Part shown: piece after piece, positions 616 to 61,877 of the stretch
Layout of the letters: each line of letters opens with the position of its first letter
Numbering within the stretch: position 1 is the stretch's first letter
Assembly (NCBI RefSeq): GCF_007970185.1
Contig: NZ_CP042431.1
Location: forward strand, 7,485,342 to 7,549,341
Length of the DNA: 64,000 nucleotides
Direction of reading: 5' to 3'
Source of the DNA: Pseudobacter ginsenosidimutans
Lineage (GTDB): Bacteria; Bacteroidota; Bacteroidia; Chitinophagales; Chitinophagaceae
The notes under the pieces: model-generated
Seen by the model: only the letters and a program-made list of their open reading frames with translations
What the model was told of the DNA's origin: nothing
Databases searched by the model: none
Program-made: the position numbers and the translations under genes

Positions 616-705
616 AGACGTACTTTTTAGTGAAATGATGGTGTATGTTAAGCTAAATTTCCGGAATTGAAGTTAAATTTTTTGTTACGTGTAAGTTCAT
701 TTATG

Positions 706-738: not shown

Positions 739-742
739 GTAT

Positions 743-2059
743 TTACTGTTCCAGCAATTCCAAAACCCCTTCATTCCTGATGATCATCATCCCCTGCCTG
801 TCTTCCGTTACCCCTTCTTTCAGCTGATAAGGATACTGAGGTCGATGCCCATCCATAATGGTTGGCATGTACCGGAATTGAATATTATGCAGGCCTTCAA
901 GAGAGGCCCCCACTTCAATAATATGTGTTGAAACGATGAATAAACATTGCGTATAATCCGCAAATCCTTCTATAACTGCGAGAGTTCCATCATAAGCATC
1001 CTTCACATTGGTGCCTTTGAACAATTCATCGAACATCAATAACAAACTTTTGCCGCTGGCGGCGGCTTCGGCAGCTTGTTTCACGCGAACCACCTCTGCA
1101 TAAAAATGGCTATAGCCCAGACCAATATTATCCGCCACATTGATACTGGAATACATGCCTTCCCTCACTGAAAACTCCAACCGCGAAGCAGCTACCGGAA
1201 AACCCATATGCGCCAGGTACATGCCGATCCCTACTGATTTCATCAGGGTAGACTTACCTGCCATATTTGCTCCCGTCAAAAAGATCATATTGCTGTTTTT
1301 ATCCAGCAGCAGGTTATTACCCACAGCTCCATCCAGATTGGGATGACGCAGTCCTTCAGCCATAAAAACATTCTCTGGTGCCGACAGAGCTTTCGCATAT
1401 CCGAATCCTTTGTCGAGGGCCACTTCACTCACTGCGATATGAACATCCGATTCATAAATGAATGCTAAGATATCTTCCAGTTGCTCATGCAGCCTGCCTT
1501 TAAGCAAATGATCATACATAGCGAGCAGCTGTAAAGGCAGTGCCTGGTAAATATCGGTATTGTATAAGCGCTCAATCAACTTATCTGATAGTATTGCTTT
1601 AATAGCTGACACCCTTTCTGCATATGGAAATTCCGGATGCGGCATTGAATTCACGAATATATAGCACTTATTAAGCGTTACGATGGTGGCCTGCAACCCC
1701 TGCACCATTTTTTTATAACGTTCATCGCGTGTAAGAGAGCTCAATAACTTTTTCAGCACCGTTCTTCCCCATACAAGCACAGTATTCCGGCTGGTTCCGG
1801 AGTCGAGGTACTCTTGCATGAGATTCACCTGCTGTACATCAAAAGGAAAAGCAAGGCGTGCATTTTGATGGAATCTGAATATGCTGCTTCGATCATTGAT
1901 AGCAACAGCATCCGTCAACGGATAACGGAACATATTATCCAGCAACTGCTCTCCTCCTCTTGTTCTCACACGATTGAACAAATGATATACGGAACCCTGC
2001 CTGAATTTTGCCAGCAGGTTCAGTTCTTCTATTGTTTGTTTGTCTGTATTGAATTGCAT
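743..2059 (-). CDS. MutS-like ATPase (second of a tandem pair), lacking the mismatch-recognition domain
   Basis: The 438-residue protein has the MutS core and C-terminal ATPase only. The Walker A motif is TGANMAGKST (about 263-271), Walker B is LLLMFDE (about 340-346), and a conserved STHIIE switch region follows. The helical lever/core domain precedes these, but the N-terminal mismatch-binding domain I and connector II of true MutS (about 800 residues) are absent, and so is the Smr nuclease domain of MutS2. It is therefore a MutS-related ATPase of unknown role, and a clamp-like DNA- or protein-binding function is inference. The start ATG at 2059 lies 31 nt inside the upstream paralogue, which suggests translational coupling. 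It is the last gene of a co-directional train that also encodes an ABC transporter and SusC/SusD. Confidence 0.85.
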   Translation of the reverse strand: MQFNTDKQTIEELNLLAKFRQGSVYHLFNRVRTRGGEQLLDNMFRYPLTDAVAINDRSSIFRFHQNARLAFPFDVQQVNLMQEYLDSGTSRNTVLVWGRTVLKKLLSSLTRDERYKKMVQGLQATIVTLNKCYIFVNSMPHPEFPYAERVSAIKAILSDKLIERLYNTDIYQALPLQLLAMYDHLLKGRLHEQLEDILAFIYESDVHIAVSEVALDKGFGYAKALSAPENVFMAEGLRHPNLDGAVGNNLLLDKNSNMIFLTGANMAGKSTLMKSVGIGMYLAHMGFPVAASRLEFSVREGMYSSINVADNIGLGYSHFYAEVVRVKQAAEAAASGKSLLLMFDELFKGTNVKDAYDGTLAVIEGFADYTQCLFIVSTHIIEVGASLEGLHNIQFRYMPTIMDGHRPQYPYQLKEGVTEDRQGMMIIRNEGVLELLEQ

Positions 2060-3408
2060 GATGATGATTGATGGTGTACCTGTTTTGATAGCAGCCGGGT
2101 CTCCGATCCTGCATTTTTCTTTCCATGTTTCAAGATCTCGAGAATGCCTTCATTCCGGATAATGATCATGCCATGCCGATCATCGGTAATGCCCTTTTCC
2201 AACCGATAGGTATACTCAGGGGTATGTCCATTCATCCGGGTGGGCAGGTACAGGAATCCTATATTTTTCTGAGACGCAAGGTCCTCTCCTGCTTCCACAA
2301 TATGAGAGGAAATGATGCAGAGACTTTTATTATGCCTGGCAAACCCTTTGATCACAGCCACTGTAGCTTCATGTGCATCTTTTACATTGGTGCCCCGAAA
2401 CAGTTCATCAAATAAAATGAAGAATGATCTGCCGGTACTCAATTCCATTGCCATCTTCTTCACCCGTAACACTTCAGCATAGAAATGACTGGCGCCAATG
2501 CCCAGGTTATCCGGCAGGTTGATAGTGGTATAGATTCCATCCATCACCGAAAACTCCATCAAACCTGCTGCTACCGGAAAACCCATATGGGCAATATAAA
2601 GAGCTGTGCTCAATGCTCTCAAAAAAGTGGATTTCCCTGCCATATTCGCACCGGTCAAAAAGACAAGGTTACGTGATGCATTCATGGTAATATTATTACC
2701 CACCGGCTCTTTCAGTGATGGATGATATACATTTTCCAACCTGAGTATTGCGCTGCCTTTATCAAGCGCCTTTGGAAAAATGAACTTTCTCTCTTTCGCT
2801 GTTTGAGCCACCGACACATACATATCGAGATAGTAGATATGACCCAATAGTTTTTCCAATGCTGCTTTTGCAGTAGCACGGAATAAACCATCATAGGCCG
2901 TAACAGCTGCATAAGACAGCTTACTACCCTGCTGCTCCCTGAGCACAGGCGCAAATGCAGGATCGGCCAATAGTTCAGCAATCTTTTCCCTTTCGTTTGA
3001 ATAAGCTATGATTCCCTTTATCTCGCTGCGCTCAATAAACTGTTTCGAAAGCCGGATGATCCCGATAATCGCCGCAACACCATTCCTGATCTCCTTCTCA
3101 CCCGGAGCCACACGGTGATGACCCGATTTTCCATTGTCTTCACTGAGCGCCAAATATTTTTCTGTAGTATCGAATAAAGAAGCATGCCAGGGGAAACGGA
3201 TATCAAGCCGTGCAAATGCTTCAATAATATTACTGCGCCGGTTGATCGCTTCTTTTTCTGAAAGCGGATTGCGGAACAACTCTTCCAATACAATTTCTCC
3301 TCCACGGGTATGAGCATGATTGTAGATATCGTAAATACCCTTACCATTTTTTCTCCCGAAAATGCCAAGGTCATCGATGGTCTGCTCATCTGTTCTTAAT
3401 ACATTCAT
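2029..3408 (-). CDS. MutS-like ATPase (first of a tandem pair)
   Basis: This 459-residue paralogue of the next gene has the same architecture: helical core, Walker A TGANMAGKST (about 252-261), Walker B FILFDE (about 330-335), and an SSHIVE motif. It also lacks the mismatch-recognition and connector domains. The last 30 or so residues after EGILEILK have no counterpart in the paralogue, which ends at EGVLELLEQ. They run 31 nt into the downstream gene, so the tail may be real overlap or the result of an indel. The gene starts 7 nt after the stop of the GldFG-like permease, so the two are almost certainly co-transcribed. Family assignment is solid; cellular role is unknown. Confidence 0.85.
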   Translation of the reverse strand: MNVLRTDEQTIDDLGIFGRKNGKGIYDIYNHAHTRGGEIVLEELFRNPLSEKEAINRRSNIIEAFARLDIRFPWHASLFDTTEKYLALSEDNGKSGHHRVAPGEKEIRNGVAAIIGIIRLSKQFIERSEIKGIIAYSNEREKIAELLADPAFAPVLREQQGSKLSYAAVTAYDGLFRATAKAALEKLLGHIYYLDMYVSVAQTAKERKFIFPKALDKGSAILRLENVYHPSLKEPVGNNITMNASRNLVFLTGANMAGKSTFLRALSTALYIAHMGFPVAAGLMEFSVMDGIYTTINLPDNLGIGASHFYAEVLRVKKMAMELSTGRSFFILFDELFRGTNVKDAHEATVAVIKGFARHNKSLCIISSHIVEAGEDLASQKNIGFLYLPTRMNGHTPEYTYRLEKGITDDRHGMIIIRNEGILEILKHGKKNAGSETRLLSKQVHHQSSSCNSIQTNKQ

Positions 3409-3415
3409 GTAATGA

Positions 3416-5754
3416 TTATTTTCGCTTTCTTCTGATCAATAAAATGGTCCCGGCCAGCAGTAATAATCCGGGCAGCACCCATTTCAGTACGATCTGCTGT
3501 TTTTTTGCAGCAGATTCTGAAAGTCGCAGCAGTTTGTCCTCAGCCGGTATTTTAGTCATGTAAACAGGAAATTCATTATGCCCCAACCAACTGTACACCG
3601 ACATCAAAAAGCCCGCATTGAATACAGCACCCAAACGCAGGTTACTGGCATAATCGGCATCGCTTGTTACAACGATCCGCTGGTCTTTATCATTTATTTT
3701 CCTCGTTAGTTGAAGCCCTGTGACAAAACTATTCTCCCTGATATCTCCTTCGGCCGGACTTAACGGCGGAAGTGTGGAATCGATGATCAGCTCTCCTGCC
3801 TTCAGCCAGGTTTTACCCGGGCTTGTAGCCAATAATACCCGGGCCTTGAATACACTGTCCTGCCTATGTGAAATAGCGGTTACCCCCGGCATCAGCGTCC
3901 TGATCGTATCTCTTCCCGGTGTGAGGGATTTCATTACCTGCTCCAATCCCTTGTATAGCTTACTACTCTCAGATGTGATATAGGGGTTTACTTTATCAGG
4001 TGTTTCATCAAAGGAGGGCTGTACCAGCTGGCCATTCATCAATTGCACACCCAACTGCTGCAATACAGGGTTCAGTACATATTGCTTGCCAGGCTTGCCC
4101 ATAAAAAACATATTGCCACCCGCATCTATATAGTTCCTGGTCTTCTGTTGCACCACTTCACTCAATTCCATTCTGGGATCTGCCAGCACAAGAGCAGTAC
4201 AATTCGCCGGAACATCCTGCAGTGAAAGATTTACGGTATCCACATCATATCCTGTGTTCACCAATGAACCACGACTAATTTTTGCAGCCGAATGAAAGTC
4301 GAATTCCCGCTGACCTGTTTTGCGAATGCTGCGCTCCAGTTCTCCTGCAACAAAATAAACAGCAGGGATTTTCTCCGGTTCCAGCAATCGTTTGAACGCA
4401 GCGGCAAAATTGCCGGCATCAGGCCAGAATTCAGGATCAGGAAAAGTCCTGAGGAATTCCTTTCTGCCGCGGTATTTCAGTTGCATCACCAGCCTGTAGC
4501 CTTCGGAGCGAAGATCGATGAGCTGATGCATTTGCTCAGGAGATTTGTAGCGCGACAAATCATCATCCAATGACTCAGCTTTGATACCTGCTATCTTTTC
4601 AAGAGAAAATCCAGGTGGATATATTTTATACAAACCACTGTCTGTGGCTATCGCATCATTGTCGTAGTAATACTCATAACGGAACTGAATATTTGGTTTG
4701 AACCGTATAATAGGTTCCCATAATGCGAGGTACTGATCATTGCGGGCTTCGGGCATTCCTTGTTCAAGCCCCTCTCCCAGCAGATTGGCGTACAAAGTTA
4801 CCTCCAGTGTACTATCGCCCATGCCTTTGATCAACTCCTGCAGCTGTTTGGATATCGTATTGCGTTTGGTAGCTGTAGTATCGAACCAGGCCGTCAATAC
4901 AGGACGTGAACTACAATAACCAATCACGAGAGAAACGGCCATTACAGTCAGATATCTTCCCCATTTTACATACCAGGCACGGCTTTCTCTTTCCGACCTC
5001 AATCTTATCAACGTAAAACCAACAAACATACCACTCACCACTAAAAAATAGATCAGGTCCCTGGTAACGATCAGTCCACCCAATAATTTGTATACTCTGT
5101 TCTGCAGCGATAGAAAATAAGTGAGATCCCTGATCAGATCATACCGTTGCCACAAACTGCCAATGTAAGTCAGAAAGAAAATAACGATGAATGTTCCAAG
5201 CGCGGATATAACCTGATAACTGCTCAGGGAAGACATGAATAAACCAATAGCTGAGTAAGCACAAAGCAACAGGTAAAAGCCCAATGCTGCAGATAACAAT
5301 AGTCCATAATCCACCTGTTCTATCGTGAAAGCTCCTATTAGCATGAAGAACACCAGTGTACCCACCAGCATAAGGTTGAACAACATGATCCCCATGTATT
5401 TTCCCAGCACGATCTGCCGGAGGCCAACAGGCGAAGAGTGCAGTAATTTTGCCGAACCTGAAAGGGCATCGCGACTGATCAATCCCATCGTTAAAATGGG
5501 GATGTACAGATATAGATTTCTAACTGAAGTGGTGAAAAGTCCGGACTTAACAAACATGCCCCAGGTCAATCCCCCTCTCCTTTATAGTTCGGACTATTCT
5601 TCATCATGATCTCCTGCCAGTTGGCTGTTCCATAAACAGCTTCTGCATATAGGATGGCAGATTGCACAAAAAATACCACTAATACAAACCAGGCTATCGG
5701 AGAGAAGAACAGATAACGCCATTCGTTCTTCGCAATTTTATATATGATCCTCAC
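3416..5754 (-). pseudogene. GldFG-like ABC permease/periplasmic fusion, interrupted by a one-base frameshift
   Basis: The gene is a paralogue of its upstream neighbour. An ABC-2 type permease with about six membrane segments is fused to a GldG-like extracytoplasmic domain and ends in a C-terminal membrane helix plus an RRKRK anchor. Translation from GTG at 5754 gives VRIIYKIAKNEWRYLF, which matches the paralogue's start MRTVLKIAINELRDLF, but runs into TGA at 5566. The rest continues in another frame from 5569 to 3416. The junction is a C5 run at 5571-5575 (G5 on the coding strand). One extra base there would give a continuous 779-residue protein, against 784 for the paralogue. Explanations are a base-calling error, a true mutation, a -1 frameshift event, or coupled restart at the TTG overlapping the stop. 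The gap to the upstream gene is only 11 nt. Confidence 0.8.
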
Positions 5755-5765
5755 GGTGATTAAGT

Positions 5766-8120
5766 TTATTTTCTTTTTCTTCTTACCAATAATATCGTTC
5801 CTGCAATCAGCATCATGCCAGGCAGTATCCACACATACAATTTCTTTTGAAGGGTAGCCCATGGAAGACTGGCCTTTATATCATTGTCTGGTGGGGGCGC
5901 CGGAATGGGTGTATAAACAGGAAATTGTTGATAGGTCAACCAGCTAAAAAAATATTCGCTGAGCTCAGACATACCTGAATTGCTGATTATATCAGCATCC
6001 CCGCTTACAATGATGCGTTGCTCATTTCCACTTAGCTGTCTTGTCAACTTGATTGCAGTGGCTAATGAATCGAATCTGAGATCACCTTCGCTTGCATTGA
6101 AAACAGGAGCAGCAGAATCAGTAACCAGCTTACCTGCCTTCAACCAGTTGTTTTTAGGACTGGCCCTGGTAAAGGGTTTGGTTAGGAATAATGGAGCTGC
6201 AGTGAAACCACTATCGCTGATAACAGCTACAGGAGTTGAACCAGCCATTCCGATCACAGACATATCTTCGGGATAAAAATTATTCTTCCATAATAGTTTT
6301 AGCTCCCTGAGAAAATGATGATTGGCCAGATCGAAAAAATATGGAGTTGAGTACAATGTTATCTTATCTGCAGTTTCATTGGGATCAACCTGCACCAGTT
6401 GCCCTGGCATCAATTGCACACCCAATGATTGCAACAATGGATTCAATACATATTGTTTCTTTGGCTCTCCCAGGATCAGCATATTGCCGCCATTATCCAG
6501 GTACTTTCGTAGTTTGGAAAGCACCACAGCACTCAGGTCCATTTTAGGATCTGCCAGGATCACAACAGATATATCGGCAGGAAGATCATGTGTTGACAAG
6601 TTGGTGGTGTCAAAATCAAAACCAAGGTTCACAAGATGATATTGCCCTGAATATTCCCGCTCCCCTTTTTTAACAAGGCTGCGTTCCAGCTCTCCTGTAA
6701 TATAAGAGAGCTTCGGCATCTTCGTTCCCAGCACCCGTTTGAATGCTGCATTGAAATAGGTTTGATTGAGGACATATTCCATCTCATTCAATTCAGCGGG
6801 CAATACGCGCAGAAAAGTTTTTCTCCCCCGGTAATTCAATTGCATCACCGATCTGTAACCCTCGCTCTTCAGGTCGATTATTTTTTTGATCTCATCGGGA
6901 GATTTAAAAAGAGCACTGTCCAGTCTCAACCCTTTTGCCAGGAGTCCGGCAATCTGTTGTTCTGTTTTTCCAGGGAACCGCCTGTACAATCCACTGTCAC
7001 CGGGAATCATGTGATAATAATATTCATAGCGGAATTTGATATCCGGCTTGAAACGGGTGTACTGTTCCCATGTATCCAGGAAAGCATTCCGGCGGGCAGG
7101 TACTACACCAATCGATCCCGAGTTGATGAGATCGAACAGGTTGGTATACATCGTTACCTCCAGGGCACTGTCTTTCATTGCATGAACGATCGCCTGAGTT
7201 TCGGGCCGGATCGTATTCACCTTCCGGGCTGAGGTATCCAGATAAGCGGTTATACCTGTACGTGATCCAACATATCCTATCAATAACCCAGCTGCGATAA
7301 CGCCCAGATACCGGGCCACCCGCACATACCACACCCTCCTTTTCACACCATCACTTAATTTCAGTATGGTGAACACAACAAACAGGGTGATGATCACCAG
7401 GTAGTAGAGCAGGTCCTTGCTCCTGATCAATCCTTTTATCAGCCAGTCGATGCGGTTATTGATGGAAAGGAAATAAGTGAGGTCGCGCCAAAAATCATAT
7501 TCCTGCCACAGAGTACCGATTATTCTCAACCCGTAGAGTACGGTAAAACTGGCGATGGCCGCTACGATCTGGTAACTGGTTAGTGCCGACATGAAGAAGC
7601 CGATAGCGCTCAGCGCACACAGCAAGAGATAAATACCCAGTATGGCAGATAATAGCGGACCATAATCCAGCGATACGATATCTGCAAAGCCTTCCACCAC
7701 AAAAATGCCCATGATCAATACAAAGAACAGGTTGAAGAACATAATCCCCAGGTATTTGCCCAATACGATCTGGCGAATGCTCACAGGCGACGAGTACATC
7801 AGCCTGATTGTACCGCTATTGAACTCCTTATTGATAATTCCCATGGTAATCAGTGGCACATAGAGGTAGAGGTATTGCAGTATATTGGTAAAAACATCAG
7901 GAAATACCTGTCCGGTCAGCGATAAAACCCTCACGTTTGCCAGCAAATAGAAATAAGGATTATAGAGCATATCGTAATGGAAGCTCTGCGTCAATATAAA
8001 AAGTGAGCTTGTATAAAAGAACCCACACATCACCATGAACACGATCAGCGTAACCCATGCCACCGGAGAGTAGAACAGATCACGCAGCTCATTAATTGCT
8101 ATTTTAAGAACAGTCCTCAT
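5766..8120 (-). CDS. GldFG-like ABC transporter permease fused to GldG-type extracytoplasmic domain
   Basis: The intact 784-residue protein has an N-terminal ABC-2 permease portion (about 1-260, roughly six hydrophobic helices, with the loop SSPVSIRQIVLGKYLG after the second). This is followed by a long soluble region (about 280-745) like GldG, and a C-terminal helix with the positively charged end VRRKRK. GldF and GldG are separate permease and substrate-binding-like proteins of the gliding/ABC complex of Bacteroidota; here they are fused. The ATP-binding partner is encoded 43 nt upstream. The transported substrate cannot be told from sequence. Being next to SusC/SusD genes suggests a role connected with the cell envelope, which is inference. 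Confidence 0.85.
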   Translation of the reverse strand: MRTVLKIAINELRDLFYSPVAWVTLIVFMVMCGFFYTSSLFILTQSFHYDMLYNPYFYLLANVRVLSLTGQVFPDVFTNILQYLYLYVPLITMGIINKEFNSGTIRLMYSSPVSIRQIVLGKYLGIMFFNLFFVLIMGIFVVEGFADIVSLDYGPLLSAILGIYLLLCALSAIGFFMSALTSYQIVAAIASFTVLYGLRIIGTLWQEYDFWRDLTYFLSINNRIDWLIKGLIRSKDLLYYLVIITLFVVFTILKLSDGVKRRVWYVRVARYLGVIAAGLLIGYVGSRTGITAYLDTSARKVNTIRPETQAIVHAMKDSALEVTMYTNLFDLINSGSIGVVPARRNAFLDTWEQYTRFKPDIKFRYEYYYHMIPGDSGLYRRFPGKTEQQIAGLLAKGLRLDSALFKSPDEIKKIIDLKSEGYRSVMQLNYRGRKTFLRVLPAELNEMEYVLNQTYFNAAFKRVLGTKMPKLSYITGELERSLVKKGEREYSGQYHLVNLGFDFDTTNLSTHDLPADISVVILADPKMDLSAVVLSKLRKYLDNGGNMLILGEPKKQYVLNPLLQSLGVQLMPGQLVQVDPNETADKITLYSTPYFFDLANHHFLRELKLLWKNNFYPEDMSVIGMAGSTPVAVISDSGFTAAPLFLTKPFTRASPKNNWLKAGKLVTDSAAPVFNASEGDLRFDSLATAIKLTRQLSGNEQRIIVSGDADIISNSGMSELSEYFFSWLTYQQFPVYTPIPAPPPDNDIKASLPWATLQKKLYVWILPGMMLIAGTILLVRRKRK

Positions 8121-8163
8121 TCAAGTAGTTTTGAAAATTATTCGGGAAACATTTCAAGTGGAT

Positions 8164-9087
8164 TTACCTGCTTACCTTATCTGATAATTGTTTGAAAATA
8201 TCATCCAGCAAGCCCTTGTCCGGATTGATCTCTTTGATCTTCCATCCCGCAGAAACGCTGGTTGCGATTAACCTCTCTGTCAATTCATCTGCATTCCCCT
8301 CGAAATAAATCTTTAATTGTTCATTGGTCACGAACTCCACTTTAGACACACCCGGAACATTCATCAGTTCTTCACGGGGAGGAGGGTTACCCATACGGAT
8401 CAACAATGCATGTGATTGCGCATAATTATTGAAAGCATCCATCGAATCGGAAAACACCACCCTGCCAGATTCTATCATGATGATCTCACGGCAGAGGATA
8501 TTGATCTCCGATAAAATATGCGATGACAACAGCACCGTATGTTCCTCTGCAATCTCCCTGATCAGTTTCCTGGCTTCGATCAGCTGGTTGGGATCAAGCC
8601 CATTGGTTGGCTCATCCAGCACCACCAGACTCGGTTTGTGGATGATAGCCTGTGCAATACCAACGCGCTGCCGGTAGCCTCCGGAGAGATTTTTGATCAA
8701 TCGTGAACTGAAATGCTGAATGCCGCATCGTTCCTTGGCTTCATCCACGGCAGACCTGATCAGGTGTTTATTGATCTTTCGCAACTCTGCACTGAAAACA
8801 AGGTATTCATCGATTGTAAGATCAGTGTACAAAGGAGGTGTTTGTGGTAAGAAGCCAATTTCCTTTTTGGCTTCTTTTGGATATTTACCCATATCGATAT
8901 CGTTGATGAATACCTTTCCCTCCGTTTGATTCAATGCGCCACAAATAATATTCATAGTGGTGGATTTACCAGCACCATTGGATCCAAGAAGGCCAATGAT
9001 ACCGGCATCCCCGATTTGAATATTGATATCGCGGATTGCCCAGTTACTGGAATATTTATGCGATAAGCGCTCTGTTCTCAGGATCAT
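8164..9087 (-). CDS. ABC transporter ATP-binding protein (GldA/CcmA-type)
   Basis: The 307-residue ATPase has Walker A GSNGAGKST (about 35-43), the Q-loop LPQTPP, the ABC signature LSGGYRQRVG (about 134-143), Walker B LVVLDEP (about 155-161) and the H-loop SSH. The C-terminal 80 residues form the accessory domain usual in GldA-like and other ABC-2 exporter ATPases. It should power the two fused permeases encoded immediately downstream, giving either a heteromeric or two alternative transporters. It starts 38 nt after the SusD stop, so it probably shares the SusCD transcript. Confidence 0.9.
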   Translation of the reverse strand: MILRTERLSHKYSSNWAIRDINIQIGDAGIIGLLGSNGAGKSTTMNIICGALNQTEGKVFINDIDMGKYPKEAKKEIGFLPQTPPLYTDLTIDEYLVFSAELRKINKHLIRSAVDEAKERCGIQHFSSRLIKNLSGGYRQRVGIAQAIIHKPSLVVLDEPTNGLDPNQLIEARKLIREIAEEHTVLLSSHILSEINILCREIIMIESGRVVFSDSMDAFNNYAQSHALLIRMGNPPPREELMNVPGVSKVEFVTNEQLKIYFEGNADELTERLIATSVSAGWKIKEINPDKGLLDDIFKQLSDKVSR

Positions 9088-9125
9088 GTCAGCTAATTAT
9101 GTGGTAATAAAAAAGGGGTGATTAT

Positions 9126-10505
9126 TTACCGGTTATTGGGAACTATATTGGGATTATTGGCAATGATGATCGGAGAAAACTGCATCAGGTAGCGTGGCGA
9201 ACCAGGCGCCAGGGTTGAAAGAACGGTAGTATTATCATCATTCATCCTTTCAGGCGTTTGTGCATAAGCCGCTTCCCGGTTCAGTCTTTTGAGGTCGAAT
9301 AACCTGAGCCCTCCGTGAAAGAATAATTCCCTTCTTCTTTCTTCCAGTACTATTTTCAAAACATCATCGTGATTGTCAGGGGTTGAATTACCGGGCAGGC
9401 GATTCTGACGCAAGCGGTTAATCCAGCTCAAGGCCCCATCTGTATCAGCTTTCCTGGCGAGACATTCAGCTTTTATCAGCACTAGTTCCGGCACAGCCAC
9501 GCTGTAGTTGAATACCTGCCACCCATACTGATAAGTGTTATAATTTCCATCAGCTCCAAAATTCACTGTAAGTCTTGTATCTGTATCTTCAAACAGATCC
9601 CTTAGCGCCGGACTGATGAGAAAGGAAGCACCTGAATATTTGGCAAGAAATGAATTATCACTGCAAAGCCGGCCCAGCAATGTTTCAGGGTTTTTAGACA
9701 GATCGATCAGAACACCTGGCATAGTGTAGGCTGTATTGTAGTTCAGCAAAGTACTTCTAAGCTCCAATGCCGCGCCGGCAGCGGTTTCTGCAGCTGCATA
9801 GTTACCCATAAAGAGATAAGTGCGGGCAAGCAAAGCATAACCGGCAGCCTTTCCGGGCTGGACAATGGTTTGCCCCATCGCAGGGAGGTCTGCACTGTTC
9901 ACTGCAGCTGTCAGGTCTTTAATGATCTGATCATACACCTGTTGAACAGTAGCCCTGGCAGGAAGAACATTGGCATCAGGCAGCAGGACCAGTGGAACAG
10001 CCAATGCTGTAGCCGCTGTTGCCGTCTGATAATGGTCTCCATACAAATTGGCAAGTTGCAGGTAGTACCAGGCACGGTTGATCTGCGCCTGTGCCCTCAG
10101 CAGATTTTTTTGTTTTGTATCCCCTTGTGCTTCATCGATCTTGCTGAGTATGATATTCATTTGAAGTATACGGGAATAAGCATTGTTGTACATAAAATCC
10201 TGGTCGCCCATATTCCATACATCCTTTGCCCACAGATAATCATGAGCGAAAAAAGAAGAAGTGTCGCTTTGCAGCATGGCATCAGTCATACGTACATCAT
10301 CACTCATCAGGTCTGCCAGTATGAAATTGCAAAGGGCCAGCGAATCATGATTGAGCATTTCTTTAAAATCAGTAACTGTTGTGGGATTCACCACAGTCTC
10401 ACTCAGACGTACGCCCAGAAATTTCTTACAGCCCATCAATAGCAGCATGACTAATATGCACAGACCAGGTATTTTTCCATTCAGTGTATGGTTCATACAA
10501 TTCAT
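9126..10505 (-). CDS. RagB/SusD-family outer-membrane nutrient-binding lipoprotein
   Basis: The 459-residue protein starts at ATG 10505 (or 10496). A further upstream in-frame start would overlap the preceding gene. A lipoprotein signal is visible, a hydrophobic stretch ending LLMGC with the acylated Cys followed by KKFLG. The body has the SusD tetratricopeptide-like pattern (AQINRAWYYLQLANLYG; ALLARTYLFMGNYAAAETAA) and the C-terminal motif VLEERRRELFFHGGLRLFDLKRLNR typical of the family. SusD lids close over the SusC pore and capture substrate at the cell surface. The substrate class is not identifiable, as no glycan-degrading enzyme is encoded nearby. Confidence 0.93.
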   Translation of the reverse strand: MNCMNHTLNGKIPGLCILVMLLLMGCKKFLGVRLSETVVNPTTVTDFKEMLNHDSLALCNFILADLMSDDVRMTDAMLQSDTSSFFAHDYLWAKDVWNMGDQDFMYNNAYSRILQMNIILSKIDEAQGDTKQKNLLRAQAQINRAWYYLQLANLYGDHYQTATAATALAVPLVLLPDANVLPARATVQQVYDQIIKDLTAAVNSADLPAMGQTIVQPGKAAGYALLARTYLFMGNYAAAETAAGAALELRSTLLNYNTAYTMPGVLIDLSKNPETLLGRLCSDNSFLAKYSGASFLISPALRDLFEDTDTRLTVNFGADGNYNTYQYGWQVFNYSVAVPELVLIKAECLARKADTDGALSWINRLRQNRLPGNSTPDNHDDVLKIVLEERRRELFFHGGLRLFDLKRLNREAAYAQTPERMNDDNTTVLSTLAPGSPRYLMQFSPIIIANNPNIVPNNR

Positions 10506-10512
10506 TTTTGGT

Positions 10513-11952
10513 TTAAGGTTGATTGCCATACACACCAAATTCGTTGAAGGAAACCTGGTCCGGCGCTTCCCCTTGTGTTGCTACAACTTCGAACTTCAGG
10601 TAACGTGTTGCTACAGGTGTGGGCAGATCGATAAAAAGATTTTCATTGAATACAGATGGCGAAGGGATATTCATCATCTGTGCTGCACTCCAATTAATAT
10701 TATCGGCACTGGTATACAGTTTTGCCTGTTTCGGATGCCAGGGTCCTTCATTCCCCGCATGCCTGATCATGATACCTTTTACAGTATTCATTTGCCCCAT
10801 ATCGGCGATAAACCATTGCGGCAATAGAGGAACAGCGTCTATAGCAGACCTCCATTGTGTGGCATAATCTCCATCCAGCAGATTGGAGGCGATTTCTCCT
10901 GTTGCCTGGCTTTCTGAAGAGGCGGAAAGAATTGTCCAACCCGAACGGGAATAGATCGTATGTGCATCAACGTTCACTCCTATGAATACTGTGCTGTTAG
11001 GTGCCGGGGGCACAAAGGCATCATCTTTTATCTTCAGTGGGATGAGATAGTTATTACCGGCAGCAGGTAGGAACTGGCTGGTGAATTCCAGGTTAAAAAG
11101 ATTCGAGTTCAATAATCCTGCCCCGATCGTATTGGTGGGTGGCACTATATTGTAATATGCTCCGGGCATTGTGACGTAAGACGATTGATGAGCTTCATTG
11201 AAACCAGCTGTAAGCTCGGGTGCAGCTACCACGTTAACCTGTAAAGGTTTTCCAAGAAAGCTGTTGACAAAAGCCATAACCCCCACATTAGCGCTGATAA
11301 AATCATTATGCGGTATATAATTCCCGTCTGACTGTTTAACCAGTTGAAGGTTGAATATATTCACCTGCTCACCTCCGGCAAAACTCACGAGAGTAGTAGT
11401 CACATCCGTAGCCGATACTTTCAGGAACATGGTTTGCCGAAGGGTATCTGCGGGAGGTGTAAGATGGTCATTATCTGTGCCCACCCTTACCGGTAAAATG
11501 TATGTTTTACCAGTTTCAATTTTGGAGAAATCCGGAATGATCTGTATTGAATCACCCGACACCAACATCCCTGCTTTAATGGTAATATCAGTATGAGCAA
11601 GCTGGAATGCACCTTCCGGCAAAGCAGGCGAGGGCATTTGGGAATTAGTCAGCCGGTCGTAAACAGGGATCAGCTCTGGGTCTATTTTTGCTGAGAGCAC
11701 AATATCCTGCTCAAAAGCATTCAGAATCCTTACCGGGAATACCATTTTATTGAGCAAAACGACGCTATCCCGGAACAAAAGTGCATTTACCGGCAATAGA
11801 TTATAGGTGGTTGGCCCATCCGGCTGCGGATCTACATAAACGATATACCTTCCCTGCTCGATAAAACTATTGTCTTTTACGCAGGAAGTGCAGAAGATCA
11901 ATAACACCTGTATACAGATGAGTGGTGATTGTATCAAATATTTTCTACGCAT
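10513..11952 (-). CDS. DUF1735 (BT_3987-like) lipoprotein with C-terminal F5/8-type (discoidin) domain
   Basis: The 479-residue secreted lipoprotein has a signal peptide ending FCTSC. Residues about 35-330 contain two repeats of a beta-sandwich region resembling DUF1735 (BT_3987-like, usually found in surface lipoproteins next to SusC/SusD). Residues about 335-479 match the F5/8 type C/discoidin fold: the ATGEIASNLLDGDYATQWRS start, the central QWFIADMG, and the ending VSFNEFGVYG. Discoidin domains bind carbohydrate or other surface ligands, so this is probably an accessory ligand-binding lipoprotein. It lies between susC (20 nt gap) and susD (7 nt gap), whereas accessory lipoproteins normally follow susD. 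Confidence 0.85.
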   Translation of the reverse strand: MRRKYLIQSPLICIQVLLIFCTSCVKDNSFIEQGRYIVYVDPQPDGPTTYNLLPVNALLFRDSVVLLNKMVFPVRILNAFEQDIVLSAKIDPELIPVYDRLTNSQMPSPALPEGAFQLAHTDITIKAGMLVSGDSIQIIPDFSKIETGKTYILPVRVGTDNDHLTPPADTLRQTMFLKVSATDVTTTLVSFAGGEQVNIFNLQLVKQSDGNYIPHNDFISANVGVMAFVNSFLGKPLQVNVVAAPELTAGFNEAHQSSYVTMPGAYYNIVPPTNTIGAGLLNSNLFNLEFTSQFLPAAGNNYLIPLKIKDDAFVPPAPNSTVFIGVNVDAHTIYSRSGWTILSASSESQATGEIASNLLDGDYATQWRSAIDAVPLLPQWFIADMGQMNTVKGIMIRHAGNEGPWHPKQAKLYTSADNINWSAAQMMNIPSPSVFNENLFIDLPTPVATRYLKFEVVATQGEAPDQVSFNEFGVYGNQP

Positions 11953-11972
11953 GAGTTGTTGCCATTATTGGT

Positions 11973-14900
11973 TTAGAAATTCACTTCCATCGTGAACGAA
12001 TAGAGCCTGGGAATGGCTAATCCGATCTGTCCGCCTGTTGAAACAGTTTCCGGGTCAACATGCAATCTGTTTCTTGTGATCACGAATGCATTCTGCACCT
12101 GTACCGACAAAGTCATTTCTTTGGCAGCTATTTTTTTCAGCCAGTTTTTAGGAGGATGCCAGCCTATCTGCATTTCCTGTAACCGGATATTATCTGCAGA
12201 CATTATGCTATTGCTTGCATTTTGAATGATGAAAGTTCTGCTTGAATTGTCATTTGTATTGGCCATAGCAGCAATATCAGTATGAGCTTCATCACCGGGC
12301 TGTCTCCAGCGGTCACGAATGAGTATACTCCTCTCTGTTGTTCCGGATGGAGAAGGAATATATTCCCTCATTACATGCCCCCAATTGCACATTACTGTTA
12401 TGCCGGCAAAAAAGGCTTTATAATCCCAGCGTTGGATCAGACCCACTGAAAAAGGGGCACGTATTACGCCGCTGTATATGAGCGCCGAAGCCAGGGTGGC
12501 ACTGTCTGGTGTAGCTGTTTTTTGTCCGTTCTGATCGTAGATCTGTGGCCTGCCCTGGTTATCGAGGCCTGCCCATCGATAACTCCAGATATTATCTGTA
12601 CTGTAGCCATTCCGGAAAGCGTTGAGAAAAGCTGATGTCTGGGAAAAATTAACAAGCGGTACATTTCTGGCAATCGTATTATTATAAGAACCATTCAATG
12701 TAATGAGGTATTTCAATGCTGTTCTGCGGATCACTTCCAGTTCCAGTTTTAGTTCAACACCACTGCTCACCAGTTCACTGTATGACACCTGTGCTCCCAA
12801 TCCTGTGGAAGGGTCAGTAGGAACAGGAATATTGTTATTGAGTCCACTGGTCCTTTTCTGATAATACCGGATATCTGCGAGATACCTTTCCTGTAAGAAT
12901 CCGATCGAAGCATGTGCTTCGAGTATTTTGGTATCGGGTTGTAAGAATCCGAAATTATTGTTCACCACCATGGAATATCCACCGCTGCCATCAGGCGTAT
13001 TTGTTTCCATCATGAGCGCCATTCCCTGAAAAGGGCTGATATGCTGCAGGGTAAAATCCGCGAGGAGACTACTGATGGAAATTGAATTGAACCAGGTTTC
13101 ACGTCCGATATCGTAACCCGCACGCATATTGAATTGCGGCCGTCCTTCAGGGGATTTTCCAATACCGCCCGCAATATTCAATAAGTTGTTCCTAAGCCGC
13201 AATTTTGCATTGGCGCCAAAATAGCTGAGTGAAGAGGAAGGAGTTTTATTAATGGTATTGTCTTCAATCTGAAGTTTGTTGAAAGTAAGGTCGAACACCA
13301 AACGATTATTCAATATCCCAACAGTCAGTTTCTCATACTTATTGCGTGTATTCTGTCCGGTTTGCTGAGCCACATTATAGCTGTTCACCCATATTCCGAA
13401 ATTGTTCCAGTTAGTTTGCTGGCTGCGGTCAGCAGTGATCTGTACGGGCAGGCGTGGCATTTCAATACCTGTAATACCGGAAGAAACGCTGATATCACTG
13501 ATCCATTCAGGTAGTTCCAGAAATTTATACCTGCTGATACGCCAGGCAGCTTCTCCATTGTAACTGGAAAATGAAACATAGGGAGGATCATATCCATAAT
13601 TAGGGCTTAGTACGGTATTATATCTTCCACTCAGCATGATCGTTTGATCGAAAGCATAGCGAACACTGGCATTCCAGCCAAGCTGACGCGTTATATTATT
13701 AAATCCGGCATTCGGCGTAAGCAAAGTATAAGGATAGGTAGTAGTTACAGGAAAAAAAGTATTGGGGTCCATATCACCAAAGAGGCCAACCACTCCACGC
13801 AGCTGATAGTAATTACCAATGGCTCCAAGCGGATTCAATGGCAACAGGATGTTCTGACCTTTCCCGGTCCCGGGGTCATACCCATAGATCGTTGAATAGG
13901 TGGGCATGCTCACAACATTGGAAGAGCCGCCACCGCCGGCCACCGCATTGATCTCATGCTTCCCTGCTTTTTTATTGAAAACAAGGCCTGACCGCAGATC
14001 CCAGTTCCTGCTTTTGGTAAAAGACCTGCGCAGTACATCTCCCTTTGGTACATATCTGAAAAGACCTGTTACTATCCGATCAGGATCAGATACATTGGTA
14101 TTGAAAATAGGTGTTGCATAATCATTCAGTAATTGTCTGGTCTGACTGCTTGCTGCTCCCTGTAACATATTCAGTTCGGAATTCCCTATTGAAGTTTGTA
14201 CAGCACTGGTCCACAACAAACCAGGCAGCAGTTCCCATTCCATCATCAGCCTGGAGTCCAGGTTCATGTTCTTTTGGATATTGCTATTGACCCTTGCATC
14301 CTGCAGGAGATTAATGCCATGATTTTCGTAACCGGCATTCATGAGTACGGCATTGGCATCCGGACTGAATCGTGAATAATCGTATACATAATCCCCTTGC
14401 CCGTTGAGCAATAACTGATAAGGCATCAGGGAAGTATTGGTTGGGTCGAAGCCGAATCCCTTATCTGCTTTGCTATGCGTAACAATCACTTGCCAGTCAG
14501 CCCTGAGTTTGCTGTTGAAAAAATTGAACCGGTTGGAAAGATTCAATCCAACACTACTGTTTTTACTTTTATAAGCTGTATTACGACTTGTACTCAGATT
14601 TCCCGTAGCAGAAAACTGCCAGTGTTTTTTACCACCTGCAATACGCAGCGTATGTCTTTGCTGGAAGATATCCTGTTGCAATAGCTTTAGCTGAGTTTGA
14701 TTGGATAACCTGCTCAATGAGTCCCATGATACATCGAATGCCTGTTGTGAAATAGCGCCCGACTTCAATTTGAACAATAGCAGTTCTGCAGGATTACGAT
14801 TGAATGCGAATGCTCCATTATCAGTGCCGCTATAATACAAGAATCCTGAATCGGAAGCTGCTTTCAAGTAATCCAGCAGATCGGCAGAAGAAGCCAGTCT

Positions 14901-16214
14901 TTGCTTGTTCCGGTTAAGATGCGGAGATGCAGCGTAATAAAAGTTCGTATTGTAATCAATATCCAGTTTGCCTTCCACTCCTTTTCTGGTAGTAATCAGA
15001 ATGATGCCACCTGCTGCCCTGGGTCCCCATCTGGCAAGCTCTTCAGGGTTCTTGATCACCTTTACCGACTCCACATTGTTCATGGGATAGTCTGACTGAA
15101 AACCGTTTTGCACAAAACCATCGATCACAATGAGCATACCGGAAACATTTCCGTTAAAACCACTTACACCTCTTAATTGTGGAATCAAACCATTATTATT
15201 GACAGAAGTTGAATTATTGATTTTGTAGCCGACCTTTTTGAATTCTTCTAGCATATCCTGAAAACTTCTTCCGGGCGCAGTACTCTTCCAATAATTATTG
15301 TAATAAGTCATCAGATCGTTATAGGATACTACATTCATTCCATTGATGGAAGACGATGCGAGGTCAATCGATTCGAGTACCGTCTGACTTTGAGAGGAGG
15401 ATTGCAGTGTAAGGCCCGGGATGGTCCCCTGCAATACCTGACCCAGGGTCATATGGCGGCGATTGGTCATGCTGATGGTATCGGTCCAGGGGATTTTTTT
15501 CTTAAAGAAATCCTGATTGCTCACCTGCACGGTACCAAGAGATACTGCTTCCTCTTTCATAACAATTTCCAGATTGGCTTCTCCATTGTATCTGATCTCT
15601 TCCTTTCCGTAACCTACAGAGGTAAACTGCAATTTGTCTCCTCTTCTTGCCGGAATTTCAAATCGTCCGTCACCATTGGTGATCGAATTCAATTTTTTAT
15701 TTCCATTTTTTGGGATACTTGTTACCGTTACACCGATCAAAGGAATGCCCAGGGGATTTCTGACCCTTCCCTGTGCGAGCGTATCTTTCATCACTGTGAT
15801 CCGGAGAAGGTCAGTCTGTGGTGATTCGGTAGACTTTTTTTCTACTATCTGGTGCAGGAAGATGATCTTTCCTTCAATTGAATACGTGAAAGGCTGGTCT
15901 TTGCAGATCAGGTCCAGTACTGCTTTCAGGGGAGCGCTCTTTACATTCAGGGAAACTTTTTTTCCCTTTTCCAGCAGGTCTGCATCGAAAAAGAAAGTGT
16001 AGCCTGTTTGCTTTTTGATTTCGGCAAAGATCTTTTTGAGCGGCAGATCATCGCCTTTCAAAGTAATCTCCTGTGCTGCACCTCTTGCGGATATCATCAT
16101 CAGGAGTATGATCAATAAAGGGATCGGTTTCCCCTTCCTCCTACGGATATCTTTAAAATGACCAATAGCAGTGTAGTAAATCGTAAGCATGGTAAGTTTG
16201 GTTAGCTTGATCAA
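11973..16214 (-). CDS. SusC/RagA-family TonB-dependent outer-membrane receptor with STN domain
   Basis: The 1413-residue protein starts at 16214 (another Met lies eight codons on). A signal segment (PIPLLIILLMMISARGAAQ) is followed by an STN domain (about 48-120), which talks to the FecR anti-sigma factor in Fec-type signalling. Then come a carboxypeptidase-regulatory-like beta domain (about 148-220), a plug (about 235-385; RWGPRAAGGIILITTRKG) and a large beta barrel ending in an aromatic-rich strand with terminal Phe (SFTMEVNF). The STN domain and the sigma/FecR pair upstream indicate ligand-dependent transcriptional autoregulation. With SusD it should import an oligomer too large for porins; the substrate is unknown. 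Confidence 0.93.
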   Translation of the reverse strand: MIKLTKLTMLTIYYTAIGHFKDIRRRKGKPIPLLIILLMMISARGAAQEITLKGDDLPLKKIFAEIKKQTGYTFFFDADLLEKGKKVSLNVKSAPLKAVLDLICKDQPFTYSIEGKIIFLHQIVEKKSTESPQTDLLRITVMKDTLAQGRVRNPLGIPLIGVTVTSIPKNGNKKLNSITNGDGRFEIPARRGDKLQFTSVGYGKEEIRYNGEANLEIVMKEEAVSLGTVQVSNQDFFKKKIPWTDTISMTNRRHMTLGQVLQGTIPGLTLQSSSQSQTVLESIDLASSSINGMNVVSYNDLMTYYNNYWKSTAPGRSFQDMLEEFKKVGYKINNSTSVNNNGLIPQLRGVSGFNGNVSGMLIVIDGFVQNGFQSDYPMNNVESVKVIKNPEELARWGPRAAGGIILITTRKGVEGKLDIDYNTNFYYAASPHLNRNKQRLASSADLLDYLKAASDSGFLYYSGTDNGAFAFNRNPAELLLFKLKSGAISQQAFDVSWDSLSRLSNQTQLKLLQQDIFQQRHTLRIAGGKKHWQFSATGNLSTSRNTAYKSKNSSVGLNLSNRFNFFNSKLRADWQVIVTHSKADKGFGFDPTNTSLMPYQLLLNGQGDYVYDYSRFSPDANAVLMNAGYENHGINLLQDARVNSNIQKNMNLDSRLMMEWELLPGLLWTSAVQTSIGNSELNMLQGAASSQTRQLLNDYATPIFNTNVSDPDRIVTGLFRYVPKGDVLRRSFTKSRNWDLRSGLVFNKKAGKHEINAVAGGGGSSNVVSMPTYSTIYGYDPGTGKGQNILLPLNPLGAIGNYYQLRGVVGLFGDMDPNTFFPVTTTYPYTLLTPNAGFNNITRQLGWNASVRYAFDQTIMLSGRYNTVLSPNYGYDPPYVSFSSYNGEAAWRISRYKFLELPEWISDISVSSGITGIEMPRLPVQITADRSQQTNWNNFGIWVNSYNVAQQTGQNTRNKYEKLTVGILNNRLVFDLTFNKLQIEDNTINKTPSSSLSYFGANAKLRLRNNLLNIAGGIGKSPEGRPQFNMRAGYDIGRETWFNSISISSLLADFTLQHISPFQGMALMMETNTPDGSGGYSMVVNNNFGFLQPDTKILEAHASIGFLQERYLADIRYYQKRTSGLNNNIPVPTDPSTGLGAQVSYSELVSSGVELKLELEVIRRTALKYLITLNGSYNNTIARNVPLVNFSQTSAFLNAFRNGYSTDNIWSYRWAGLDNQGRPQIYDQNGQKTATPDSATLASALIYSGVIRAPFSVGLIQRWDYKAFFAGITVMCNWGHVMREYIPSPSGTTERSILIRDRWRQPGDEAHTDIAAMANTNDNSSRTFIIQNASNSIMSADNIRLQEMQIGWHPPKNWLKKIAAKEMTLSVQVQNAFVITRNRLHVDPETVSTGGQIGLAIPRLYSFTMEVNF

Positions 16215-16268
16215 TAGAAGTCAATTCCTGGCCGGCGAGCCAGGATAGGAACAGGTTGGGAGAAGGTA

Positions 16269-17417
16269 TTATGGTTGTACAGTCAATTGTTTTCCTTCGA
16301 TCTTGAAATGGACGCCATTCTTTTCGAGACCACGTAGTATCTGCGATAACATGGCATCCATCGGGATCTCTCCTTCGAAGTGTTTATTAAGTGGAACACC
16401 GGCAGCATACACAATGTCTAAGTCATACCATCGCGCCAGTTGTCGCATCACGGCTTTCAGATCAGCTTGTTTGAAAAAGAACAGATTGTTTTTCCAGGCC
16501 ATCGCCTGTTCGATATCTGCATCGATCAGTTTGATATTGTTGTTATGATCGATTTGCGCCTGTTGGCCTGGCGTCAACAGTTGTTGGTTTTTATCTTTCA
16601 ATACTTTTACCGATCCCTGCAACAGGGTTGTTTTGACAAGTTCTTCATCGGTATAGGCGTTAATGTTGAAATGCGTTCCAAGTACTTCCACTTTCATTCC
16701 ATTAGCTGTTACATGGAAAGGCTTGCGGGCATTTTTTGCAACTTCAAAATAAACTTCACCTGTGACGGTAACGGCTCTTTCGTTACCGGAGAAAGCAGTG
16801 GGAAAAGTAACAGAGGAAGCAGCATTCAGCCATACCTGTGTGCCATCAGACAGGGTGAGCTGGTACTTACGGCCACGCGGTGTACTCATTGTGTTGAAGG
16901 ATATTGCAGTATGGGTGAGGTTGTCTTTATTGTAGGTCACCTGCCCGTCTTTGTATTCAACTTTTGCACCGTTCTGTTTGGCGATGATTCCATTGCTGAG
17001 ACTGTCCAAGACCATCTGGGTTCCATCTGCAAGTGTGAGGATGGCTCCGCTTTTTCCCGGTGCCACGTCTTGTTTCACTGTAGCTGGCATTGTAGCTGTA
17101 TCAGGCTTCAATAATAAGAACCACACACCACAACCAAGCAACAGCAATACACAGGCAACAGCAATACCTCTGACCCGGCGAATACGACGCGTAACGGATG
17201 GCAATTGCATGATGATGGCTGATTCAGATGTATGACTTTTGATGATTTCCTGCCAGGCTTTTTCACGTAATTGCTCCAATAATTCCGGGTCTTTCAATCG
17301 AGTACGATCCCACTCGAAGGAAGTATACCATTGTTCCAGAAAATCGATTTCCCCGGCACTGGCCTGGCCCGCATTGTATTTTCTGATCAGTGATTCCAAT
17401 TGGTTTCTTTCCATCAT
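16269..17417 (-). CDS. FecR-family anti-sigma factor
   Basis: The 382-residue protein has a cytoplasmic N-terminal sigma-binding region (about 1-80), one membrane helix (about 84-103, GIAVACVLLLLGCGVWFLLL) and a periplasmic FecR domain (TLADGTQMVLDSLS; RKYQLTLSDGTQVWLNAASS; EVYFEVAKNARKPFHV; VEVLGTHFNINAY). A C-terminal DUF4974-like end (ADLKAVMRQLARWYDLDIVY) is also present. It holds the adjacent ECF sigma factor inactive until the STN domain of the SusC receptor signals substrate binding. It lies 76 nt after the sigma gene and 54 nt before susC. Starts ATG ATG at 17417/17414. Confidence 0.93.
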   Translation of the reverse strand: MMERNQLESLIRKYNAGQASAGEIDFLEQWYTSFEWDRTRLKDPELLEQLREKAWQEIIKSHTSESAIIMQLPSVTRRIRRVRGIAVACVLLLLGCGVWFLLLKPDTATMPATVKQDVAPGKSGAILTLADGTQMVLDSLSNGIIAKQNGAKVEYKDGQVTYNKDNLTHTAISFNTMSTPRGRKYQLTLSDGTQVWLNAASSVTFPTAFSGNERAVTVTGEVYFEVAKNARKPFHVTANGMKVEVLGTHFNINAYTDEELVKTTLLQGSVKVLKDKNQQLLTPGQQAQIDHNNNIKLIDADIEQAMAWKNNLFFFKQADLKAVMRQLARWYDLDIVYAAGVPLNKHFEGEIPMDAMLSQILRGLEKNGVHFKIEGKQLTVQP

Positions 17418-17493
17418 GGTTGTTATTGTGCTCTATCTACAAGAAGAAGAACAGATGAGCCAGGAGAAAGTACCAAAGGAGGAAAAAAAATTC

Positions 17494-18072
17494 TTAAATA
17501 AGGAAAATAAAACGAGCGAGATCATTCCTCCGGAGTTGTTCCCGGATACGTTCCATAGCCAGATAGAGCTGGTTTTTAATGGTCTGTGGCGATAACTCGA
17601 GCTGTGTAGCGATCTCCTGCATAGTAAGCTGTTGCTCTTTGGCGAGCCGGTAAATGGTTTTCATTTTTTCCGGCATCACCAGAACAGCAGCAGCCACACA
17701 GGCCTGTATCTCTTTGGCCCTGATGCCTGCAAGGATCAGGTCTTCCGAGCTTACAGGTTCCAGTGGTTGCTGAAGAATATGATGCAACCTCACAGATTGT
17801 TTCTCATAGTAGTTGAAGATCCTGTGCCGCAGGGCCACGTAGAGATAAGCGCCGATATTATCGGTTACATGGATATTGTCGAGATTATTCCAGAGAGCGA
17901 TAAAAAGTTCCTGGATGATATCGGAGGAATCATCTTTGCTACGGGTTCTTTTGAATGCCATCTGGAAAAGATCGTCGTGGTATTTCTCGTAGATAAGTCG
18001 GAATGCCTGTTCATCGCCCTGTCGGGCGGCAGCAATAAGTATAGGGTCGGTATGTTCTGAATAAGATGGCAA
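17494..18072 (-). CDS. ECF RNA polymerase sigma factor (sigma-70 family, FecI-like)
   Basis: The 192-residue protein has sigma region 2 (about 20-90; DEQAFRLIYEKYHDDLFQMA, SSDIIQELFIALW) and region 4 (about 130-180; the helix-turn-helix TMQEIATQLELSPQTIKNQL). There is no in-frame ATG near the 5' end; the reading frame begins at TTG 18072, a weak start. It heads the train FecR-SusC-DUF1735-SusD-ABC-permeases-MutS and probably transcribes it when FecR is released. Confidence 0.92.
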   Translation of the reverse strand: MPSYSEHTDPILIAAARQGDEQAFRLIYEKYHDDLFQMAFKRTRSKDDSSDIIQELFIALWNNLDNIHVTDNIGAYLYVALRHRIFNYYEKQSVRLHHILQQPLEPVSSEDLILAGIRAKEIQACVAAAVLVMPEKMKTIYRLAKEQQLTMQEIATQLELSPQTIKNQLYLAMERIREQLRRNDLARFIFLI

Positions 18073-18314
18073 CAGGGATTGATTGAAATAAAAGCCTGTA
18101 GGGAAGGTTTATAGTGAAGGTGGACGAAACAAAAATGATGTTTTTTGGGGGATTGAGCAAATAAAGAACCTTTGATTGTTTTTTTTGAACTTCATTATGA
18201 TTTTCAAATCCATTCATGCCGGCGTTTCCCGAACCACTACTTTGTTTATTATCCGTTAAGATATTCACTTAATTTGCTAATAAGTTCTGTATAAGAATGC
18301 GATCCGCTGAATGC

Positions 18315-60563: not shown

Positions 60564-60631
60564 AAAAAAAATTCCCGGTTCGTCGGGAAACAGGTTATTT
60601 TTTTGTGACTACAATTTAAACGGCCTATTGC

Positions 60632-61783: not shown

Positions 61784-61877
61784 TCACCAGATAAAATTTT
61801 CAGTATAGTGGTCCCGGTGCATGCATCCCGGGAAGGACTTCTATGCGCTAAAACGAACCAAAACAGAAAGCTTCAAA

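Follow-up and report, generated by a model that had tools for sequence, protein, structure and literature searches.

The 64,000-nucleotide window of the Pseudobacter ginsenosidimutans chromosome analysed here (contig NZ_CP042431.1, positions 7,485,342 to 7,549,341) contains on its minus strand a ten-gene train in which a SusC-SusD (SusCD) locus is genetically tied to a GldA-like ATP-binding cassette (ABC) ATPase, a GldF-GldG fusion permease and two MutS-like ATPases, MUTS1 and MUTS2. With a confidence that stops a little short of even, we propose that this is one copy of a multi-copy system for the uptake of peptides or small proteins, in which an inner-membrane ABC machine would work together with a MutS heterodimer that has no part in repair; we infer both the assembly of this machine and its cargo.

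The open reading frame (ORF) listing and Pfam matches agree with a first-pass annotation of the window on ten same-strand genes and on their order and families. From the head of the train these are an extracytoplasmic function (ECF) sigma factor (17494..18072; PF04542, PF08281), a FecR anti-sigma factor (16269..17417; PF04773, PF16344), a SusC TonB-dependent transporter with an STN domain (11973..16214; STN, Plug, CarboxypepD_reg), a surface lipoprotein with a BT_3987-like/DUF1735 N-terminal part and an F5/8 discoidin domain by Pfam (10513..11952), a SusD-like lipoprotein (9126..10538; PF14322, PF07980), the GldA-like ABC ATPase (8164..9087; PF00005), a GldF/GldG-like ABC permease fusion with six hydrophobic segments by hydropathy and a large soluble middle (5766..8120; PF12679, PF09822), the main part of a second such fusion (3416..5569; PF09822, ABC2_membrane_2), MUTS1 (459 amino acids, 2029..3408; PF00488 at 3.3e-26) and its partner MUTS2 (438 amino acids, 743..2059; PF00488 at 2.3e-25). 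Along this order the gaps are 76, 54, 20, -26, 38, 43, 196, 7 and -31 nucleotides (nt), so that the 76-nt ceiling given by the first-pass annotation holds for eight of the nine gaps or overlaps and fails for one. A terminator between SusD and the ABC ATPase would have spoken for two separate units, and the 38-nt gap at that point contains no terminator-like site. Promoter-like sites are no commoner than in shuffled sequence (38 vs 39.3), and Rfam models have no match in window positions 1-20000.

Gene order in the genome and its relatives

This soil Bacteroidota chromosome (7,797,595 bases, one contig) has 117 matches to PF00488 (MutS_V), which comprise 56 tandem pairs and five singles; the best single match (a 910-amino-acid frame, 274.9 bits) appears to be the genome's ordinary MutS. 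According to the ORF calls, SusC, SusD, ABC and permease genes each occur in the chain upstream of 55 of the 56 pairs, sigma then FecR stand at the head of 51 of the 56 chains, and 413 of 488 intergenic gaps in these modules are of 100 nt or less (median 22). Gene calls were made with a greedy ORF script, in which opposite-strand ORFs hid the SusD of L031 and L130 and the ABC of L078, L140 and L144; all were recovered by a frame-free tblastn check. Because this check finds permease, ABC and SusD nearby on the same strand at 55 of the 56 MutS pairs (53 inside strict limits, L023 and L037 narrowly outside) independently of ORF calls, the module gene order is far beyond chance. The 55 simple modules span ~0.83 Mb, or 10.6% of the chromosome, a figure that takes in up to ~4.6 kb between two modules (the chain of L021 starts in the neighbouring module). 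Two permease genes accompany 26 of the 55 pairs, about half (27 have two matches, one of them with both in a single gene). The 56th pair, L012, is rearranged (MUTS-MUTS-sigma-FecR, with ABC-permease ~11 kb off), and ~3 kb beyond it on the same strand lies L185 with a split SusC, a split SusD and DUF4843-type, PKD-type, ABC and permease genes.

The module accounts for a minority of the SusD complement, as at least 150 SusD_RagB matches were found (150 of 198 candidates scored) vs 56 modules, and most SusD genes of this genome are outside modules. Five of the 87 stretches matched by PF09822 lie > 6 kb from any MutS pair. They belong to a GldG-like gene of GldG size (L188), to the rearranged 56th module, to a remnant and to two loci that are complete except for MutS (L186, L187).

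All six genomes searched in the genus have MUTS1 profile matches at E<=1e-95 (6 to 112 each). Scoring the best 3–8 candidates per genome, we found pair-type matches (E<=1e-150) in 18 of 195 genomes of a family sample, exactly one pair being present in 10 of these 18; in a phylum sample of 296 genomes such matches were confined to the source genome and a single member of another family. Relatives with loci among the best 80 include Chitinophaga, Pseudoflavitalea, Niastella, Flavitalea, Pedobacter, Mucilaginibacter, Sphingobacterium, Puia and Longitalea. The comparison of neighbourhoods across Chitinophagaceae that the first-pass annotation had proposed shows the order sigma–FecR–SusC–SusD–(lipoproteins)–GldA-like ABC–GldF/GldG fusion–MutS1–MutS2 to recur in that family and beyond it, in Pedobacter, Mucilaginibacter and Sphingobacterium. 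We collected 104 views of such loci, representing 100 distinct loci. Permease, ABC and SusD lie within limits on the same strand in 87 views and narrowly outside in three (L105, L110, L157); nine others come from the ends of contigs or from very short ones (L080/L161, one locus, and L117, L119, L148, L164, L168, L172, L178), and four are rearranged (L065, L181 and L066/L184, the last two one locus). In L065, L181 and L184 the MutS pair stands beside sigma at the opposite end of the set, which is kept despite the changed order in L065 and, as far as the view reaches, in L181 and L184. In the remaining view, L121, an ABC-permease-MutS set lacks SusCD on its strand over the 8.5 kb upstream; a FecR gene lies ~4 kb away on the opposite strand. 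Cut views apart, we found no MutS pair that lacks linkage to ABC-permease.

Conversely, the permease profile, again with the best 3–8 candidates scored per genome, matches seven of the 296 phylum genomes, five of which have no pair-type MutS. Four loci without MutS in two other families were inspected. L201, L202 and L204, from one family, read sigma-FecR-SusC-SusD-ABC-permease-M16-like peptidase (M16 by Pfam in L201 and L202, alike by its N-terminus in L204), and L203 reads sigma-FecR-SusC-SusD-DUF4843-type-PKD_2-permease-ABC-permease. It may be that the core is SusCD with ABC-permease and that MutS is a later part. The outcome for independence of the SusCD and ABC-MutS parts, which the first-pass annotation had taken as a sign against a joint system, is therefore mixed: a MutS pair away from SusCD is found only in L121 among uncut views, SusCD-ABC-permease occurs without MutS in L186, L187 and L201-L204, and the sequence histories of the two parts match only loosely. 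A 170-amino-acid MutS-like fragment near another module (L103:7787-8299) is perhaps the remnant of a pair.

The 196-nt stretch in the train contains the start of the second permease, ~60 N-terminal residues that tblastn with homologues from other modules places at 5578..5754 (read 5754-5578 in frame -2, continuing at 5569-3419 in frame -1). As sequenced, this gene appears to be split by a frameshift; the frame change adjoins a run of five G at about 5571-5575, and decay, slippage or sequencing error may each be the cause. There are 23 split sites in 17 of the 56 own-genome loci (L025 and L026 share one site, counted twice), and a homopolymer run lies <=60 bp from 13 of the 23 (background 0.187).

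Joint evolution and the MutS-like pair

Pairwise identities between own-genome modules with complete calls (48–55 per part) were correlated among parts. ABC, permease, MUTS1 and MUTS2 form a block with r of 0.73–0.92 (MUTS1-MUTS2 0.92, ABC-permease 0.85, ABC-MUTS1 0.84). SusC and SusD correlate at 0.69 with each other, and with the block at 0.22–0.27 and 0.41–0.48 respectively, while sigma and FecR range from -0.11 to 0.00 against it (FecR-ABC -0.03, sigma-ABC -0.02) and reach only 0.22 with each other. In the 36 modules with all eight parts, Mantel p was 0.001 within the block and likewise for SusD where it was compared with block members, 0.003 for SusC-MUTS2 and 0.40–0.73 for four pairs of sigma or FecR against the block. 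Partial correlations in the same modules were 0.78 for MUTS2-ABC given SusD and 0.17 for MUTS2-SusD given ABC. ABC, permease and MutS proteins thus share one evolutionary history, which sets them apart from both SusCD and sigma/FecR, and SusC-SusD is a looser second unit. The recurring order and this co-evolution of the ABC and MutS parts bear out the suggestion of the first-pass annotation that an apparently undescribed system is present.

It might be argued that the ABC genes and the MutS genes have simply been duplicated along with SusCD as passengers and share no function with it. Tandem modules do occur (L024-L026), and duplication of whole units would make all trees match, but the matches within the unit are uneven, with only 0.15 for FecR and SusC, which are neighbours, and near zero for FecR-ABC. 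FecR and the permease have diverged to a similar degree (mean identities 0.37 and 0.40), yet the permease does correlate with ABC, so signal loss cannot by itself account for the FecR mismatch; sigma (0.26), SusC (0.30) and SusD (0.31) are more diverged. The set also survives in rearranged gene orders, and we consider passenger status improbable.

Alignments resolve two clear MutS-like subtypes, with PF00488 scores of 90–93 bits against a cut-off of 30.2 and Walker A and B residues invariant in 23/23 rows of each alignment. Because eight loci (L039, L054, L072, L083, L164, L172, L175, L178) encode MUTS1-MUTS2 as a single frame, the sequences support a MUTS1-MUTS2 heterodimer. The predicted MUTS2 model (predicted local distance difference test, pLDDT, 86.2) is helical to residue 217, with no strand at residues 6-222, and continues into the ATPase domain; its best fold matches in the PDB are MutS and MutSbeta. 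In the fused L175 model (pLDDT 86.6) the MUTS1 half is likewise helical ahead of its ATPase domain. The MUTS2 model has neither room nor fold for the mismatch-binding domain I, connector II or clamp IV, and the fused model shows none of these either. Because the pair keeps lever and ATPase domains without the DNA-contacting ones, a role on DNA is unlikely for these proteins.

Two explanations nevertheless place the pair on DNA. The first-pass annotation had offered DNA as a possible cargo, and a system that imports DNA or some other nucleic acid for the MutS-like ATPases to act on would suit the classical action of this family on DNA and the best PDB sequence matches of the pair, which are MSH2/MutS. 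The missing domains speak against it, as do the accessory genes of relatives, which are peptidases and thioredoxins with no nuclease family among those scanned. We regard nucleic-acid uptake as highly improbable and rejected DNA uptake or repair as the principal explanation. Alternatively the pair may stand outside any transport machine and control how the module copies recombine, duplicate or undergo gene conversion; recombination between diverged repeats is held in check by MutS homologues, and 56 parallel copies in one genome would offer a substrate. This is distinctly improbable, since the DNA-contacting domains are absent here too, since the 10 family genomes with a single pair still have it beside module genes, and since the tight match to ABC is left unexplained.

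We also tried a KamC-like identity for the single ~440-amino-acid MutS-like gene present in most of the family and rejected it, as the four singletons scanned score 91–103 bits against a cut-off of 300 and the L087 gene lies between an amidohydrolase gene on one side and genes for an M1 peptidase and a Mg-chelatase-type (ComM-like) ATPase on the other. This gene (L087-L098, L104) has a match at E<=1e-70 in 167 of the 195 family genomes, pair-bearing ones included.

Cargo and direction of transport

In the mechanism we propose, a peptide or small protein would be carried into the periplasm by SusCD, where secreted thioredoxins and peptidases (M16, S41) would unfold and cut it; many relatives carry the genes for these enzymes in the operon chain, and the source genome presumably has them at other sites. 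The product would then be handled at the inner membrane by the ABC-permease complex with its large GldG-like part, and the MutS1-MutS2 heterodimer would act on that complex from the cytoplasm, as a switch or remodeller powered by ATP, and would leave DNA alone. Copies could diversify as receptor and regulator are exchanged around a conserved inner-membrane machine. A more far-reaching version, in which the MutS heterodimer is a second motor on the cytoplasmic side and makes up, with ABC ATPase and GldF-GldG fusion, a two-ATPase envelope machine, SusCD imports whole peptides or proteins and the 56 copies each differ in specificity, seems to us doubtful.

Operon chains in the 100 distinct loci of relatives contain S41 peptidases (17), M16 peptidases (14), a Tricorn-type protease (1) and thioredoxins (14), with any of these in 43 and a peptidase in 32. 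M16 is confirmed by Pfam in L152 and L014 as well as in L201 and L202, and L161, a reordered locus, has an S9 peptidase after SusD. Several accessory enzymes have signal-like N-termini, as judged by eye, in keeping with a periplasmic site.

The same genes can be read in the opposite direction. The ABC-permease-MutS part may expel a compound such as an antimicrobial peptide, a lipopeptide or a signal, with SusCD importing a related molecule or acting in sensing, and the 56 copies would then reflect an arms race with many peptides. The permease is of ABC-2 type, the ATPase has sub-cut-off matches to DrrA and lantibiotic-protection models, accessory peptidases and thioredoxins suit peptide antibiotics as well as nutrients, and FecR-type control permits sensing of an external ligand. 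Against this, there is no recurrent small ORF in the module gaps (63 short ORFs, largest family three) and no biosynthetic family among the accessory genes scanned, and of eight proteins run against PADLOC the ABC ATPase is alone in having matches, which cover part of the protein and are to ATPase-bearing defence models, while the MutS-like proteins, permease and three lipoproteins have no match. We consider export or self-protection unlikely, if a serious contender. Export of ribosomally synthesized and post-translationally modified peptides was rejected on the lack of a recurrent short ORF, and anti-phage defence on the lack of any PADLOC match beyond a generic ATPase.

Several observations weigh against peptide uptake by such a machine. 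Most ABC-2-type systems are thought to export. Two loci in the source genome (L186, L187) have a complete sigma-FecR-SusC-SusD-ABC-permease set without the MutS pair, which makes MutS dispensable in some such loci, and the relative placement of the two halves in the fused L175 model is uncertain (predicted template modelling score 0.66). In 49 relative loci, which were chosen by MUTS2 similarity, the correlations of ABC-permease (0.92), SusC-SusD (0.91), MUTS1-MUTS2 (0.85) and ABC-MUTS1 (0.69) speak for the proposal, but MUTS2-ABC (0.55) is barely above MUTS2-SusD (0.48). A peptidase or thioredoxin is present in the chain of only 6 of the 56 own-genome loci, and the link to peptides therefore comes from the relatives. 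In favour of that link, unassigned genes of >=250 amino acids match peptidases or thioredoxins far more often inside chains (47/69) than outside (7/290), and also in the source genome alone (6/13 vs 3/103), but this test is partly circular, as its references were drawn from modules, the L085 reference has no Pfam family and a few loci were counted twice. In L106 a major facilitator superfamily transporter follows the S41 gene, and the product might enter by that route. Finally, the window lipoprotein carries a discoidin domain, which is often linked to glycans. Sister modules have different lipoproteins (DUF4843, PKD_2, weak DUF4397 or unknown), mostly in the slot between SusD and ABC.

In nine modules (L010, L018, L036, L044, L048, L049, L058, L059, L062) a second ECF sigma gene with a hydrophobic, membrane-anchor-like C-terminal segment lies directly upstream of ABC. 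The last of these begins within the window on the plus strand (59976..64000; sigma 59976-60563, FecR 60632-61783, SusC from 61821, by mapping of the L062 annotation) and runs beyond its end.

Relation to known systems

The module is apparently undescribed so far; no description was found in a search of the open literature, most subscription papers and preprints being beyond its reach. One tenth of this chromosome is devoted to copies of this system, which bears on the question of how Bacteroidota handle non-sugar SusCD cargo at the inner membrane. We know of no earlier MutS-family ATPase in transport, and this module would be the first if the two-ATPase version of our proposal is true; a physical link between ABC and MutS would give MutS-type ATPases a transport role outside DNA and ribosomes.

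The MutS-like proteins share lever and ATPase domains and Walker motifs with MutS, MutS2 and KamC, but lack domains I, II and IV and any C-terminal extension and fall below every family cut-off: 105–123 vs 480 bits and 88–105 vs 641.7 bits for the NCBIfam mismatch repair MutS equivalogs, 61–64 vs 400 for MutS2 (the proteins end after the ATPase domain, with no KOW or Smr match in Pfam) and 92–102 vs 300 for the KamC reactivase. The ATPase, permease and GldG-like part recall the GldA-GldF-GldG gliding complex, but the module fuses the GldF and GldG parts in one protein, and scores are far under the NCBIfam cut-offs (GldF 75–81 bits, 75.5 for the window permease, vs 288.5; GldG 15 vs 389.85; GldA 257 vs 402.6). 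Separate GldF- and GldG-sized genes (240 and 565 amino acids, L188) are present elsewhere in the source genome.

With the polysaccharide- and peptide-utilisation loci of Bacteroidota the module shares the SusC-SusD pair, surface lipoproteins and ECF sigma/FecR genes, and in the window copy SusC, SusD and a surface lipoprotein lie in one gene run. It adds an inner-membrane ABC-GldFG-type transporter and the MutS-like heterodimer, and family annotation of the window copy bears out the earlier remark that the train has no degradative enzyme. Protease-associated import, as in Fus of Pectobacterium and YddB-PqqL of E. coli (PMC6793856), combines a TonB-dependent receptor with an M16 protease. The main text of that paper, which has a section on Proteobacteria, does not mention SusD, MutS, GldG or Bacteroidetes, and SusC appears in it once, in a figure legend. 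The window copy has no M16 gene beside its receptor, whereas in each of L201 and L202 a single gene run includes the receptor, the ABC part and an M16 gene confirmed by Pfam. The module differs in that SusCD replaces FusA/YddB, the ABC transporter is of GldFG type and MutS-like ATPases are present; protease-associated import is nevertheless its nearest working model.

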